Positions 5,921 to 39,707 of a stretch of DNA of 40,326 nucleotides are shown one piece after another. This DNA comes from a virus. The position numbers and the translations under genes are program-made. The notes beneath the pieces were generated by a model. The model searched no databases. It had not been told where the DNA came from and worked only from the letters and a program-made list of their open reading frames with translations. Numbering within the stretch: the first letter of the stretch is position 1; each line of letters begins with the position of its first letter. Location: IMG/VR virus record IMGVR_UViG_3300043640_000180, positions 1 through 40,326 of that record; one strand, written 5' to 3'.

Positions 5921-6501
5921 TAGCTTTTCTCCTTGTCGCCAAACATCTTTCGGGCGTTGTCCTCGCCTGTCTGTCCCATACGATCGCGCTCGAACTCCTC
6001 GCGTGATTCACCCTCTAGGACTTGCCGAATCGGTGCAGCCAGGTCGATGCGCAGCAACAGGTGGGCGCGGGCGTCGACCTTCGGCCCTGTAAATCCGTTT
6101 CCTCGGCAGTCGATCACCTTCCCGTCGATCGCGCTGGCCTCGATCGCGTCGGCGAGCTGGCGCAGGCCTGCGGCAAGGTTCTTGTCGAGCGCCGCCTGTA
6201 TCTCGTCGGGAGTGAAGATCGAGATTGCTGGAGTGGTCTGCTGTAACTCCACGATTTTCTTTGCGGAAGTCATAACATCTTCAGCAACGCCAGCTGCGTC
6301 TGCGGCTAAGCTCGTAGCTCGAAACGCCAAGCATGCAAGCGTAATTGCATACTGATTCGACACCGCGTAGGTCAGCTCCCCTCCAGCCCAGGCCTCGGCG
6401 ATCATCTCGATGGTGGATGGCCTCAATGAAGCAGCTTCAGATGTGTTCATAGCTGCACCCCTCGCAGCTATTAACCGTTCTTCGTGCGTGAACTCTCTCA
6501 T
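5920..6501 (-). CDS. Hypothetical helical protein
   Basis: This 193-aa protein starts at ATG 6501 behind GAGGTAG. It is Ala-rich and helical in the first two thirds, followed by a short beta section (VIDCRGNGFTGPKVDARAH) and a charged C terminus. The FTGP codons contain one of three exact copies of a 13-bp word seen in this window. The stop overlaps the next ATG. No known family is recognised. Confidence 0.65.
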   Translation of the reverse strand: MREFTHEERLIAARGAAMNTSEAASLRPSTIEMIAEAWAGGELTYAVSNQYAITLACLAFRATSLAADAAGVAEDVMTSAKKIVELQQTTPAISIFTPDEIQAALDKNLAAGLRQLADAIEASAIDGKVIDCRGNGFTGPKVDARAHLLLRIDLAAPIRQVLEGESREEFERDRMGQTGEDNARKMFGDKEKS

Positions 6502-6505
6502 TTTT

Positions 6506-6754
6506 CTACCTCAACCAAAGACATTCATACTGCGGGTTCTGGTAAAACCGGCTGTCGATCGCTGCCATCATCACGCCGGTTATACAGTGTTTGCCAATGC
6601 TCCATATCCACGCTTCATTGGCCGCGTCGCAGTAGTCGACGCCGGTCTCGAAGCTATCAAGGACAAACAGGCCGACTCCAACGGAGCGGCCTATCCGGTT
6701 CACGTCGACGCACTCGCCCAGGTTCAGCTTTTCGTGCATTCGCAGGTTCTTCAT
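6506..6754 (-). CDS. Hypothetical small protein
   Basis: This 82-aa protein starts at ATG 6754, coupled by an ATGA overlap to the preceding gene; longer readings upstream run through that gene and are rejected. It is of mixed beta character and Cys-containing, with no recognised domain. Confidence 0.6.
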   Translation of the reverse strand: MKNLRMHEKLNLGECVDVNRIGRSVGVGLFVLDSFETGVDYCDAANEAWIWSIGKHCITGVMMAAIDSRFYQNPQYECLWLR

Positions 6755-13069: not shown

Positions 13070-13317
13070 GCCAGATGCACTTTCTTTTTCTGGTTGTCCC
13101 GGATAAATTCGCCCATCAGAAACGCCTGGTGGCTCTCCCATCCCACATCGAAGCCACTGCAAAACGTCGCCTTCGCTACCTCGATCTGTTTCGCATTCAG
13201 TCCACCATTGGCAAACTTGGGAAGGCATTGCGTCCGCCACAACTTCTCTCGCTGTTCTTCTCGCGCCGCGTCCGCGCGCGCCTGAATCTGCCTCTCTGCC
13301 TCGTCGAAGCTCGCCAT
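13066..13317 (-). CDS. Small helical protein
   Basis: This 83-aa protein starts at ATG 13317, overlapping the previous stop by 1 nt (TGATG). It has a charged coiled-coil N-terminal half (DEAERQIQARADAAREEQRE) and a C-terminal section with FCSGFDVGWESHQ. No family is recognised. Confidence 0.55.
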   Translation of the reverse strand: MASFDEAERQIQARADAAREEQREKLWRTQCLPKFANGGLNAKQIEVAKATFCSGFDVGWESHQAFLMGEFIRDNQKKKVHLA

Positions 13318-14387
13318 CAGTTCACCGTCTCCCCGTTGCGCCACATAAAGAGCTGCTGCAGGTACCACTCCGCTGCCGGCCCGCTGCCCAGGGGAAACGC
13401 GCGGTGCGCCTCGTCCTCGGTAATCACCCGCGCGCGAATCATCGTCATCAGCGCCGTTCGCCAGCCTACATACTTTGCCGACGTTGGCACGCCGAACTCG
13501 TCGAAGCCCATAATCATCCACTCGGTTCCCAGCGGGGCCTGCAGGGTGCCTACTCTCAGGAACTCCGGAACCTCGGTCTCATACGCCTCGCGCTCCAGCA
13601 GGATCTCGGTCGCGGTCTGGATCATATCGCCGGCCAGGTGAAAGCTCTTGTCTGCCTCGGCGTTGTACTTCGCCTTGCGCAGCCGCTTGGCCTTCACCAG
13701 CTCGCCCTCGGCGGCGTCCTTCATCTCGCCGGCCTTCACCTGGGCGTAGTCGTGCTGCACGGCGGTCTGTCCGTTCCACATCGGGTTGCGTACCACCAGT
13801 GCCAGCAGGCCGCTCTTTCCGGTGGCGCTCATCTTCACGATGCGGTCATCCTTCAGCAGTATGCGATCCCTGCGCCCCAGCGCCTCGCACAGCCGCTCGT
13901 GGAACTGCCAGGGGCTCAACACCTCGCCGCGCCGCATCTCTTCGTTCTCGCGGCCCTCCCATCGCTCCTGACCCTCCCACTTGTTGCGCTCCTGGTCGGC
14001 GGCCAGCAGCTCGTGCAGACGCCAGCGCATCTCGATCTCCTCCTCGGGCGTCTTCGCGTCCTCGATCTCCATCTGCATCCGCTCCATCGCCTCCTGCACG
14101 CGAGGGTGGCGGCCCAGCTCGTTCATCTGCCGGGTCGCCTTCTCCTCCTGGTGCCAGTCGGCGAAGCTGGGCGCGGCCCCCACCGCGACTCCATCCATTC
14201 CCATCCCCAGCGCGAGGCCCAGCCCGTCCAGCGCCCTCTCATCACTCGCGCGGGTATCGGCGACGTAGCGGCCACCGTCGATCTCCTCCGCCGCCTTGCG
14301 GATCTCCGCCTCGGCGGGGTGAGCCTTCGGCGCGCTCTGGTGACGACGGGCGATGTGGATAGCTGGCGAAACTGACCGATTGCTCAT
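13317..14387 (-). CDS. Hypothetical late protein with coiled-coil
   Basis: This 356-aa protein starts at ATG 14387 with SD AGGAG, coupled ATGA to the gene before it. It has a long charged helical middle (about 85-160, Met/Glu/Arg-rich) and a mixed C-terminal domain with WMIMGFDEFGVPTSAKYVGW and a C-terminal helix. It sits between the counter-defence pair and the lysis gene. It could be a minor virion protein; nothing specific is recognised. Confidence 0.55.
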   Translation of the reverse strand: MSNRSVSPAIHIARRHQSAPKAHPAEAEIRKAAEEIDGGRYVADTRASDERALDGLGLALGMGMDGVAVGAAPSFADWHQEEKATRQMNELGRHPRVQEAMERMQMEIEDAKTPEEEIEMRWRLHELLAADQERNKWEGQERWEGRENEEMRRGEVLSPWQFHERLCEALGRRDRILLKDDRIVKMSATGKSGLLALVVRNPMWNGQTAVQHDYAQVKAGEMKDAAEGELVKAKRLRKAKYNAEADKSFHLAGDMIQTATEILLEREAYETEVPEFLRVGTLQAPLGTEWMIMGFDEFGVPTSAKYVGWRTALMTMIRARVITEDEAHRAFPLGSGPAAEWYLQQLFMWRNGETVN

Positions 14388-14575
14388 CGTTGACTCCTGA
14401 GTTTGTCAGCTTTTTGGATTACTGCCGTTGCTTCGGCCACAACCTCACCGGCGATTCTTCGGGCTTCCGCATCCATAATGAGGCGTGTGGCATTGAAAAG
14501 CGTCACAACTTCTTTCAGTGTCGAAAGCAGCTCGTCGTTTAGCTTCTCGGCAACTATCAGCTTCGCTTCGCTCAT
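14384..14575 (-). CDS. Small helical protein following the sponge pair
   Basis: This 63-aa protein starts at ATG 14575 behind GGAGGAA and overlaps the Acb2-like gene by 4 nt (ATGA). It is almost wholly helical with a heptad-like pattern, so probably an oligomerising coiled-coil. Being coupled to the Tad2-like and Acb2-like genes, it is worth testing as a third counter-defence gene, though no family is recognised. Confidence 0.6.
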   Translation of the reverse strand: MSEAKLIVAEKLNDELLSTLKEVVTLFNATRLIMDAEARRIAGEVVAEATAVIQKADKLRSQR

Positions 14576-14793
14576 TGTTCCTCCTCCGGGTTGCACGCGA
14601 TCGCAAGATTCATGGCCATCACGGTTTCGCGCAGATGGCGCATCGCGGCGGTCTTGTCCGCGCAGTCCGGCACGCTCTTGTTGAATAGCTCCGCGAAGCC
14701 CTTGGCCACGATGCGCAGGTCCGTGTATCGGTTTACGCGCGTTGGGTTCGGCGTGTGGTACTGAAACCAGTTGTCGATGTCTTCCTGTCTCAT
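14572..14793 (-). CDS. acb2-like: Acb2/Tad1-hairpin family cyclic-nucleotide sponge
   Basis: This 73-aa protein starts at ATG 14793 (ATGA overlap with the Tad2-like gene). It matches the helical-hairpin family of Acb2 (DUF7681 or Acb2_Tad1_hairpin, as I recall): an N-terminal aromatic patch NWFQYH (8-13), a following Tyr (23), helix 1, the short turn VPDCADK (41-47), then helix 2 with AAMRHLRETVMAMNLAIA. Known members form hexamers that sequester the cyclic di- and trinucleotides of CBASS; some Tad1/Acb2 relatives also bind Thoeris gcADPR. The turn-Asp-Lys followed by a long amphipathic helix ending in N-AIA is the key evidence. Ligand choice cannot be read. It sits in the late operon beside a Tad2-like gene. 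Confidence 0.7.
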   Translation of the reverse strand: MRQEDIDNWFQYHTPNPTRVNRYTDLRIVAKGFAELFNKSVPDCADKTAAMRHLRETVMAMNLAIACNPEEEQ

Positions 14794-15062
14794 AGAACCA
14801 TCCAATCTTCGGCCAGCTGGTCAGTTTGCGATGGTGTCCACGGGACGACAGTTCCGTCCACTGTCTTCAAAGCTATGTAGGCCTGATAGGGAACCAAACC
14901 ATTTTCGCCCCATTCTGCCTTCGCGATCTCGGTCCTCGCGGGATACTGACCCTCTGGGACGTAATACAGAAACATCCCTTTGCCGTTCCATCCCTTTCTC
15001 GCTACTCGGTCGCCGTCTTTCAACGCTGCAAGCGCCACTCCATAATTCAATGGAAATTCCAC
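14790..15062 (-). CDS. tad2-like: DUF2829 / Tad2-like anti-Thoeris sponge
   Basis: This 90-aa protein starts at GTG 15062, with GAGGAGA upstream, overlapping the previous stop (TAGTG). It is a full-length DUF2829 protein: GVALAALKDGDRVARKGW (8-25), NGKGMFLYYVPEGQY (26-40) and the C-terminal signature VPWTPSQTDQLAEDW (73-87). DUF2829 is the family of Tad2, which as a tetramer sequesters the gcADPR signal of Thoeris immunity; some members also bind cyclic dinucleotides. The family call is strong, the exact ligand is not. It is translationally coupled to the Acb2-like gene. Confidence 0.85.
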   Translation of the reverse strand: MEFPLNYGVALAALKDGDRVARKGWNGKGMFLYYVPEGQYPARTEIAKAEWGENGLVPYQAYIALKTVDGTVVPWTPSQTDQLAEDWMVL

Positions 15063-17257
15063 TATTTTGTCTCCTCGGTGTTCTCTTCCTGCGGTGGTTG
15101 GTTCTCCTGAATGATCGCAGATGAGATTAACCCAGCGGCCAGCTTCGGGGTTACGTTATTGCGCACGGCGTAGTCGACCAGCGTACCAATGTGCGGATTC
15201 GTTGCCGCCTGTTGCAGCAGCCATCGTTCGGCCTTCGCGCCGGCGTAGCTTCCGGCCACTGCGCCCTCGAAGCCTCCCATCTGGTGACCGATATAAGCGC
15301 CCAGCGCGCCTCCTACCTTGCCGTGCATCATGTTGTGCATCACGCTCATACTCATGCCCTTGAACCCGCTGGCACCCTTGGGCGTATTCAGCAGATCGGA
15401 CATGCGCGTCATGTTCTCCATGCCCTCCTTGCCGATGACACTCTCCAACCGGTCCTGGCCGTACTGCTTGATAAGCCGCTGCATCCCGTTCTGCAGCCGC
15501 ACCCCGCTCAACACGCGGCCACCGGCTACCTCTGAGGCATAGCGTTCATTGACGTTGGCAGCATGTTCCACCGCGCTGTGCAGGCCGTCGAGCACCATCG
15601 ACTTCGACCACAGCGTCGAGGCCTGGGCGCGCTCGCCGTGCGTGATTCCATTCGAGTTGTCGATGATGCCTCGAATCTGTCCCTCTAGCTGGTATTGCTT
15701 GGTGAAGTCGCCGCGCTTGCCGGCTGCGGCGCGTTCACGGTTCAGGCGTCCGAACTCGCCATCCGAAACCGCGTCGAGCTTCTGATAGATCGGCGTGGCC
15801 GCATTCTGCAACTGGTCGGCAGCATCCCCAAAGGTCTGCACGCTCTGAGCGCCGCGCAGCGCATCGACGGGTCGGAAATTCGGCAACGTCCGCTGGTAGG
15901 CGTGATACATATCCATCTTCTGGGCGAGCTGGTCCCGCGCCTCGGTTACGTCGCTGATCTGCTGCGGAGACATATCAGGCTCCGGGTTGTCTACCAGATC
16001 ATTCAGCCTGCTCAAATGCGCCTGCGTCGCTTCCGGCCCCATCGAAACGATGTCGCCGCTCCCTGTCACCCTCGTACTTCCCATTTCTTCACCGGGTTTG
16101 AGGCTGGTGAGGTATTGCAGGATCGGCTCTTTGTGCGTCGGCCCTGTAAACGGCTCCTGGTCATGGACGAGCGGCAGCGGCTCCTCATCGCCATACTTGA
16201 AGGCACCCTCGTTGTACGGCTCCGTCTTCGCTGCGGTCGGCGAACCTTTCCCCGGAACGTACTCGCTTCCAATCTGCTTCACGCGCGGCGTATTCCCGCC
16301 TGGCACTGACTCCTCTGTCGTTCCGATGCCTTCGATGGTGAAGGGATAGGGTCTCGCATCCTCGGGCGATGCCAGGAGACGCGCGGGGTTCCTAATCTGG
16401 TTGGCCACGACGCGCCCCTGATTGGCTTCGTTCAAGGCGTCCTGCGTGGCGTTCCGTGCAACATTCCTGAACACCTTTGGGGCTGATGCCTGCTGCGCCG
16501 CTCCTACTTCGGGAACCTCGTTCACCTTCACGTCGCCGCGCGGTCCTGTGCCTGGTCGCTGCGAGGAAAGCGTCTGCACCTTCTCTCCCGCGATGTCCTC
16601 GACTGCCGGCGCAACCTTCGCCGCTCCATGCTGCAGCGCGCCCAGCCCACCATCGAGCGCGCCTGCGGTCAATCCTGTTACTGCTCCACTCTCAAGCGCC
16701 CCCGTTGTGTCCGCTCCATGCAATCCGGCTTGCGCCGTGCCAATCCCCATCGCCTTTAGGCCCGTCTGTACGGCTTGAGCGATGCGGGGATACTTCTCCA
16801 TCGTCTTCATCAACGGGGCCAGGTGCGAAAACTTCTCGGCCACGCTCATCCCCTTGACCGCTTCGTCGCCCAAAGCAAACTCCGCGATGTTCTCCAAGCC
16901 ATATCCGGTCATGCCGGCGATCGTGTGGGGTATCGGCGCGGCGGCGGCGGCATCCACTTTGCTCTTGAGTTCTGGGGCCAGGTCCAGAGCGCTGGTCGTT
17001 TTACCATCCATCGGGGCAAAGAGCTTGGCCAGGGTAGAAAGGCTCTGCGCACCGCCCGTCTTCACAGCCTGCCATGCCTCACTGGCTTGTTGGCCCAACG
17101 AATCTTCATCTGGCGGCGGCGTTGCGGGGGCGCTGGTGGCTGGCGCAGCTCCAACCGGCGCACCGAGTCCGGCGAGAGGATCGCCGCCGCCGCTCGATGG
17201 CGGTGGAGCGCCGACTGGAGCGCCGATTCCCGCGAGAGGATCTGCAGCGGCGCTCAT
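15062..17257 (-). CDS. Large internal virion (DNA-ejection) protein
   Basis: This 731-aa protein has its ATG coupled ATGA to the previous gene. The N terminus has a duplicated segment, DPLAGIGAPVGAPPP and DPLAGLGAPVGAAPA, also visible in the DNA. Long Ala/Gln-rich helices follow, and near the C terminus there is a glycine-zipper-like stretch, GGALGAYIGHQMGG then AVAGSYAGA, suited to membrane insertion. It is one of three consecutive large, low-complexity genes after the nozzle and GNAT-like genes, the position of T7 gp14-gp16-type ejection proteins. No transglycosylase motif is seen. Confidence 0.6.
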   Translation of the reverse strand: MSAAADPLAGIGAPVGAPPPSSGGGDPLAGLGAPVGAAPATSAPATPPPDEDSLGQQASEAWQAVKTGGAQSLSTLAKLFAPMDGKTTSALDLAPELKSKVDAAAAAPIPHTIAGMTGYGLENIAEFALGDEAVKGMSVAEKFSHLAPLMKTMEKYPRIAQAVQTGLKAMGIGTAQAGLHGADTTGALESGAVTGLTAGALDGGLGALQHGAAKVAPAVEDIAGEKVQTLSSQRPGTGPRGDVKVNEVPEVGAAQQASAPKVFRNVARNATQDALNEANQGRVVANQIRNPARLLASPEDARPYPFTIEGIGTTEESVPGGNTPRVKQIGSEYVPGKGSPTAAKTEPYNEGAFKYGDEEPLPLVHDQEPFTGPTHKEPILQYLTSLKPGEEMGSTRVTGSGDIVSMGPEATQAHLSRLNDLVDNPEPDMSPQQISDVTEARDQLAQKMDMYHAYQRTLPNFRPVDALRGAQSVQTFGDAADQLQNAATPIYQKLDAVSDGEFGRLNRERAAAGKRGDFTKQYQLEGQIRGIIDNSNGITHGERAQASTLWSKSMVLDGLHSAVEHAANVNERYASEVAGGRVLSGVRLQNGMQRLIKQYGQDRLESVIGKEGMENMTRMSDLLNTPKGASGFKGMSMSVMHNMMHGKVGGALGAYIGHQMGGFEGAVAGSYAGAKAERWLLQQAATNPHIGTLVDYAVRNNVTPKLAAGLISSAIIQENQPPQEENTEETK

Positions 17258-38691: not shown

Positions 38692-39707
38692 CAGCCAAGG
38701 TCCACCTTTTCGACGCGGGGCGCGATGGCCGGCTTGCTGATGCGGATCTCAATGCCGCCGCCCTGGGGGGGGTAATCAACCTTGAGTCCTGGGTGAGCTA
38801 ATTTCACCTTCCGCATCGCGGTTTTAACTTTTTTCTTGAGGTTGTCCTGGTCGGCATACTCACAACCAAGCTGCTGGCCGAGCATCTTCCAGGTGAGGAG
38901 ATGTTTTGTTCTGCCGCGTGCTTTGAGGTTCGCGCCGATGTAGTTGCAGAAGAGGTATAAATCCAGCGCCAGGGGAGACTTTCGCAGGGCGGTGATGGCC
39001 CGTAGATCGAACGGAATTGCACTCTCCATGATGGCCGCAAAGAAGTCTTGGCTTAACTCGATGTAGCTGTCGAAACTTGGGCTTTTGCCGGGCACCCACC
39101 ACCCGAGTACGCTGCGGTCGACGATCGGCTGCCGCTGCATGGATTCCATTTCGACGCGCTGCAATTTCTTGCCGTCCCACTCCGTATGATCCCACCGTCT
39201 ACGGTAGCTAATGTGCGATCCGATGAGACGCGCGAATTGCTCTTTTACCCTAGCGGTGTCGCTGCGCTTTCCACCCTTCGAGCTATCCAGCCCCAGCTCG
39301 TGAGAGAACTCAGCCAGGCGGCCACCTAGATGCAGCCTGCGTACCCCTGTGCGCTTCGCCTCTGTCACCATCCAGATGAGAATCAGGCGAGGCAAAATGC
39401 CGTAGGGATACCCCATCTGACAGTCGTTTCTCTCATCCCAACCGGGTTGAATGATGAGGGTGTAAGAGCCATTTTTTCGCTTCCATACCGGCGCTTTTCC
39501 GGGGTCTTTGTGGGGTAACGTACATTGCACCAGAAAGCGCGAGAGGAAGGCCGTCTCTCCCAGCGCATCGCCGTGTATCTCCTCGGACCCTTGAATGAGT
39601 TTTAGCGCCGCTTTAGATGGCTCTTTGGCGGCTGCGGCGGTCCCCGATTTTTCGTTCAGGCCCGTTGAATCTGCGATCTCTGGTAAGGAATTGGGGATAT
39701 CGTTCAT
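38691..39707 (-). CDS. repA: RepA_C-type plasmid replication initiator
   Basis: This 338-aa protein matches the RepA family (RepA_C, as in IncW-type plasmids): GYPYGILPRLILIW (99-112), TEAKRTG (115-121), RLAEFSHELGL (130-140), VKEQFARLIGSHISY, LSQDFFAAIMESAIPFDLRA and SPLALDLYLFCNYI, then a winged-helix-like C terminus with KVKLAHPGLKVDYPP. It should bind the iterons at 39841-40056 and open the origin. The first 55 residues are Ala/Glu-rich and probably flexible. ATG 39707 has AAAGGA upstream. It is oriented away from the iterons, as usual. Confidence 0.85.
   Translation of the reverse strand: MNDIPNSLPEIADSTGLNEKSGTAAAAKEPSKAALKLIQGSEEIHGDALGETAFLSRFLVQCTLPHKDPGKAPVWKRKNGSYTLIIQPGWDERNDCQMGYPYGILPRLILIWMVTEAKRTGVRRLHLGGRLAEFSHELGLDSSKGGKRSDTARVKEQFARLIGSHISYRRRWDHTEWDGKKLQRVEMESMQRQPIVDRSVLGWWVPGKSPSFDSYIELSQDFFAAIMESAIPFDLRAITALRKSPLALDLYLFCNYIGANLKARGRTKHLLTWKMLGQQLGCEYADQDNLKKKVKTAMRKVKLAHPGLKVDYPPQGGGIEIRISKPAIAPRVEKVDLG

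Follow-up and report, generated by a model that had tools for sequence, protein, structure and literature searches.

The window analysed here is a 40,326-nucleotide stretch of viral DNA, positions 1 to 40,326 of IMG/VR record IMGVR_UViG_3300043640_000180. Two small overlapping genes in it raise the question of whether this phage carries a translationally coupled pair of sponges against two kinds of nucleotide immune signal, as had been proposed in a sequence-only reading. Three small genes lie together on the minus strand, and a check of the sequence showed the coordinates and strand proposed for them to be correct: a tad2-like gene of 90 codons with a GTG start (14790-15062), an acb2-like gene encoding 73 residues (14572-14793), and a 63-aa open reading frame, h63 (14384-14575). 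The ATGA that tad2 and acb2 were said to share is present at 14790-14793. The same type of stop-start overlap joins acb2 to h63 (14572-14575) and h63 to the conserved gene downstream (14384-14387), all on the minus strand. The third gene is thus coupled as proposed, with an ATGA at both ends, but it is an orphan that matches no family in Pfam, PHROG or NCBIfam searches and has no relatives in the phage and viral-contig collections searched. Its best Pfam match, SMP_2, falls far under the cut-off.

The slot sits within the structural-gene operon of this soil-type phage, between two lineage-conserved genes on the same strand. The upstream flank (15062-17257) encodes a 731-aa putative ejection or virion protein that has no Pfam, PHROG or NCBIfam match and is found with 63-82% identity in six viral contigs. 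The downstream flank (13317-14387) encodes a 356-aa protein, recognized by its conservation in related contigs (88-90% identity in five and 45-55% in two others), for which the same three collections give no family above cut-off. The lysis gene that had been placed next to the cassette was not confirmed, as the downstream open reading frames are without a Pfam match. A scan of the slot for promoters and terminators found none above chance, a DNA-level search of the region against known phages gave no match, and the cassette genes have no PADLOC or NCBIfam model.

The 90-aa protein is a full DUF2829 (Tad2) protein, as had been recognized from the sequence. It matches PF11195 with an E-value of 7.1e-26 (91 bits, against a cut-off of 25 bits), and residues 6-89 span positions 2-72 of the 73 in the profile, which corresponds to a full-length domain. 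Proteins of this family are homotetramers with two ligand pockets. The closest solved relatives in a sequence search of the PDB are entries 9eib and 8v3e (E ~1e-28), with ModTad2 at an E-value of 1.6e-28. The window protein shares 48/83 residues (about 57%) with MoTad2 compared with 34/88 with SPO1 Tad2, which is also a significant match by sequence (E 1.7e-13). The single-chain model, predicted with a pLDDT of 94.5, has as its best fold match ModTad2 in complex with hisADPR (9eib, E 3e-11), ahead of HgmTad2, SptTad2 and SPO1 Tad2 (8smf/8smg). All 24 PDB matches to this model at E<=0.001 are Tad2 proteins, including ones deposited as AcrIIA7.

In a tree of 55 Tad2 proteins, the window protein and MoTad2 fall in one supported clade (95/82), and the SPO1, Spt and Hgm proteins form a separate clade (95/87); because the tree is midpoint-rooted and built from few columns, it serves as a guide to the ligand and not as proof. 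The alignment shows that the window protein lacks the insertion of the HgmTad2/SptTad2 type, which has been tied to cyclic-dinucleotide binding (PMC12043709). MoTad2 is reported to bind His-ADPR, the type II Thoeris signal, and SPO1 Tad2 to bind gcADPR, the type I signal (PMC13299392). Since sequence, fold and tree all place the window protein nearer to the reported His-ADPR binder, we favor a TIR-derived signal as its predicted ligand, with His-ADPR likelier than the gcADPR put forward earlier.

The 73-aa protein proved to belong to the Acb2/Tad1 hairpin family. It matches PF24729 with an E-value of 8.4e-10 and 39 bits, above the curated cut-off of 27, and spans positions 2-58 of the 58-position profile. 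Acb2 proteins are hexamers that sequester cyclic oligonucleotides. The predicted model (pLDDT 93.9) contains the expected helical hairpin, with a short helix (residues 3-9) followed by two long antiparallel helices (17-40 and 45-67), the architecture given for Acb2 (PMC12043709). Tad1, which has the same PF24729 hairpin, was rejected as an identity for this protein, whose model is all-helical and lacks the Tad1 N-terminal beta domain. When the model was compared with 350,542 PDB chains, T4 Vs.4 (Acb2) in complex with cGAMP ranked first, although the match is weak (E 0.5, probability 0.85-0.89, TM 0.63), so the curated profile match is the stronger evidence for an Acb2 assignment. Identity to the T4 and PaP2 Acb2 proteins is 17-18%. 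A PDB search with the single sequence returned nothing relevant, and a profile search yielded just "Acb2 homolog 43" (E 0.004), with Tad1 chains falling below the threshold.

Part of the Acb2 binding site can be traced in the window protein. Residues T4 Lys-23 and PaP2 Lys-26, the latter of which we take to be a ligand contact, align with Arg-27, which is kept in 58/58 relatives; the PaP2 mapping rests on a multiple alignment. T4 Tyr-8, a binding residue (PMC12657218, PMC12657230), aligns with Tyr-12, and the tyrosine is kept in 57/58 relatives. T4 Phe-82 aligns with Ala-66, and PaP2 Acb2 likewise has alanine. At the position of T4 Thr-68, where the substitution T68M lowers binding (PMC12657230), the window protein has Arg-52, and T4 Acb2, PaP2 Acb2, Acb2 homolog 43 and Tad1 all have threonine. 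The sample of 58 sequences divides into two signatures: 37, including the window protein, have R52 with mostly R55 and A45, and the other 21 have T52 or N52 with E/Q/D55 and R45. The first group, the Arg type, is marked by R52/R55 in the motif "ADKTAAxRxLRE." Because arginine replaces the threonine whose substitution lowers binding by T4 Acb2, the ligands of the characterized proteins are no more than candidates for the Arg type.

Scans with the flanking genes identified sister contigs in which the slot, bounded by the conserved genes for the 731-aa and 356-aa proteins, is variable. The window slot contains tad2-acb2-h63. L094 contains tad2-acb2 with the ATGA joint seen in the window, and L003 contains tad2-acb2, joined by GTGA, followed by a gene for a small CxxC protein. 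The slot holds acb2 alone in L091, tad2 and a CxxC gene in L089, and tad2 alone in L092, and it is empty in L093. Searching the complete records for the two families gave results consistent with these contents. L185 and L186, more distant relatives by the downstream gene, have neither Tad2 nor Acb2, and other small open reading frames occupy the slot. At nearly every joint, the cassette genes other than the first, as well as the downstream flank, start at an ATGA or GTGA that overlaps the preceding stop codon, and the first cassette gene overlaps or abuts the end of the upstream gene. The acb2 gene of L003 (L003:6001-6402) is fused to a C-terminal extension of ~60 residues that itself matches no Pfam family; no other acb2 gene of the lineage has a fusion of this kind. 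The CxxC protein ("CPSCRRWYTDM...HLWRGC") occurs in the slot of two contigs (L089:10378-10548 and L003 about 6408-6593); the L089 copy has no Pfam match.

Both sponge-like genes are under purifying selection, with dN/dS values of 0.06-0.20 for tad2 and 0.13-0.28 for acb2; the value for the downstream flank is 0.10-0.15 among close contigs. To call tad2 and acb2 one unit, as had been done, is an overstatement because each also occurs singly in sister contigs. Nevertheless, the tad2-acb2 order recurs in two further members of the lineage (L094 and L003), and this recurrence, together with the low dN/dS of both genes, indicates that the pairing is more than chance. Between the same contigs, dS is higher for tad2 (0.9-2.6) than for the downstream gene (0.4-0.5) or acb2 (0.24-0.55), which fits an exchange of tad2 alleles among relatives, although tad2 is short and its sites are close to saturation. 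The tad2 genes of the slot form a single clade (99/96). The G+C content of the window genes is 0.53 for tad2 and 0.51 for h63, with higher values in the flanks (0.62 and 0.66).

We consider it probable that the slot holds a modular counter-defense cassette, which combines a Tad2-type sponge for a TIR/ADP-ribose-derived signal with an Acb2-type sponge for cyclic oligonucleotides. The predicted Tad2-type protein would most likely sequester the ADP-ribose-derived signal of TIR (Thoeris) systems, and the predicted Acb2-type helical protein the cyclic oligonucleotides of CBASS and related systems. Through the stop-start overlaps, the same ribosomes could make both sponges, resulting in their co-production. 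From what is known of the two families, each protein would form an oligomer that holds signal molecules, so that the effectors would not be triggered and the phage would be protected. Of the earlier claim that two signal classes are covered at once, the breadth is plausible from both family assignments, but gcADPR as one of the ligands is not supported.

A different choice of ligands, gcADPR from type I Thoeris for the Tad2 member and cGAMP/cA3 for the Acb2 member as in T4 and Pseudomonas phages, seems rather unlikely. Both proteins belong to the same Pfam families as the known binders, SPO1 Tad2 is a significant match by sequence and fold and shares an invariant core with the window protein (W25, G27, M30, W75, D81, W87), and clade membership is no proof of ligand. 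The higher identity to MoTad2, which also comes first by tree and fold, argues against gcADPR. That the Tad2-like gene encodes an AcrIIA7-like anti-CRISPR and not a signal sponge is highly improbable. This suggestion derives from HgmTad2, which is deposited as AcrIIA7/"Inhibitor of Type II CRISPR-Cas system," and from the anti-CRISPR annotation of some phage Tad2 homologs. However, HgmTad2 has been solved in complexes with 1',2'-cADPR and cGG, so the sponge function is better grounded, and the protein nearest to the window Tad2 is hisADPR-bound ModTad2.

The slot could also be a hot spot that receives small accessory genes in general, in which the adjacency of the two sponges is incidental and without joint function; we regard this as possible, although on the doubtful side. 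The occurrence of tad2 and acb2 on their own, the use of the same slot by h63 and the CxxC protein, and the finding of Tad2 in 0/9 sampled Acb2-carrying contigs of other lineages would all be expected of such a hot spot. In contrast, three contigs of the lineage keep both the tad2-acb2 order and its stop-start overlap, and the presence of Tad2 and Acb2 within about 1.1 kb of each other in L158 and L128 is suggestive only.

Expression of the two sponges is probably late, given the position of the slot within the structural region, and such timing could be a drawback against defenses that act early. The sponge-sensing defense Panoptes punishes phages that carry Acb2 (PMC12657218, PMC12657230), and a cost of this kind would fit the loss of acb2 in some contigs. 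A more specific proposal, which we consider quite unlikely, is that the Arg-type Acb2 binds a signal unlike that of the Thr-type sponges and that the slot serves as an exchangeable set of sponges, tuning which host signals are blocked and dropping acb2 where Panoptes-like sponge-sensing defenses are present. If the cassette reading is true, a single phage lineage carries, in one coupled cassette, sponges against immune signals of two chemical classes. The close contigs, with both sponges, either one or none, would then be a natural series for asking which host defenses favor which sponge, Panoptes would offer a testable reason for the gain and loss of acb2 (PMC12657218, PMC12657230), and the Arg-type subfamily would be a concrete place to seek new ligand specificity.

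The Tad2 and Acb2 families are already known; the coupling of the pair, the shuffling of the slot and the Arg type of Acb2 represent a modest, incremental addition. The window Tad2 resembles ModTad2/MoTad2 from a Myroides odoratus prophage (PDB 9eib, 8v3e) in its full-length domain, level of identity, predicted fold and lack of the insertion. It differs in its GTG start, its coupling to acb2 and its location in a structural-gene slot, and its ligand, tetramer and activity are predictions. The Acb2-like protein shares the family match, helix layout, binding-site tyrosine and basic residue of T4 Vs.4 (PDB 7uq2) and PaP2 gp26; apart from its low identity to them and the arginine at the Thr-68 position, it lacks their long inter-helix insertion. 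Phages that counter more than one nucleotide signal have been described, namely by the multi-signal sponge Tad1, by Acb1 and Acb2 in T4 and by Tad2 and Acb4 in SPO1 (PMC12043709, PMC11722364), whereas in the window two sponge genes are directly coupled through an ATGA. None of the publications consulted describes a directly coupled pair of this kind. As in other phage accessory-gene hot spots, variable small genes lie between conserved ones, but most joints in this lineage keep the stop-start overlap whichever gene is present.

The host is plausibly a member of the Acidobacteriota, as judged from two sequence similarities: the window RepA-like protein is closest to a plasmid RepA of Granulicella tundricola (44%), and Tunturiibacter phage Tunturi_1 encodes one of the closer Acb2 relatives among cultured phages (41%). 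One genome scan, run with the terminase, returned no host match. The RepA-like protein (38694-39707) matches the RepA_C family of plasmid replication proteins (E 4e-19), and the phage may replicate in a plasmid-like manner as a phage-plasmid.

A search for Tad2-Acb2 neighbors elsewhere found adjacency at 2 of ~75 further loci, a number too small to support a statistical argument. The two genes lie about 0.45 kb apart in L158 (2941-3928) and 1.1 kb apart in L128 (1606-3198); the contigs are otherwise different, and these could be independent pairings. Another structural-region location is seen in Gordonia phage UBSmoodge (L097:1983-3192), where an Acb2-like gene overlaps the end of the portal gene and the start of an RNA ligase gene. 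The Acb2-like genes of Paenibacillus larvae phages (e.g. L098:1998-2213) carry the label "putative phosphomannomutase," apparently a propagated misannotation.
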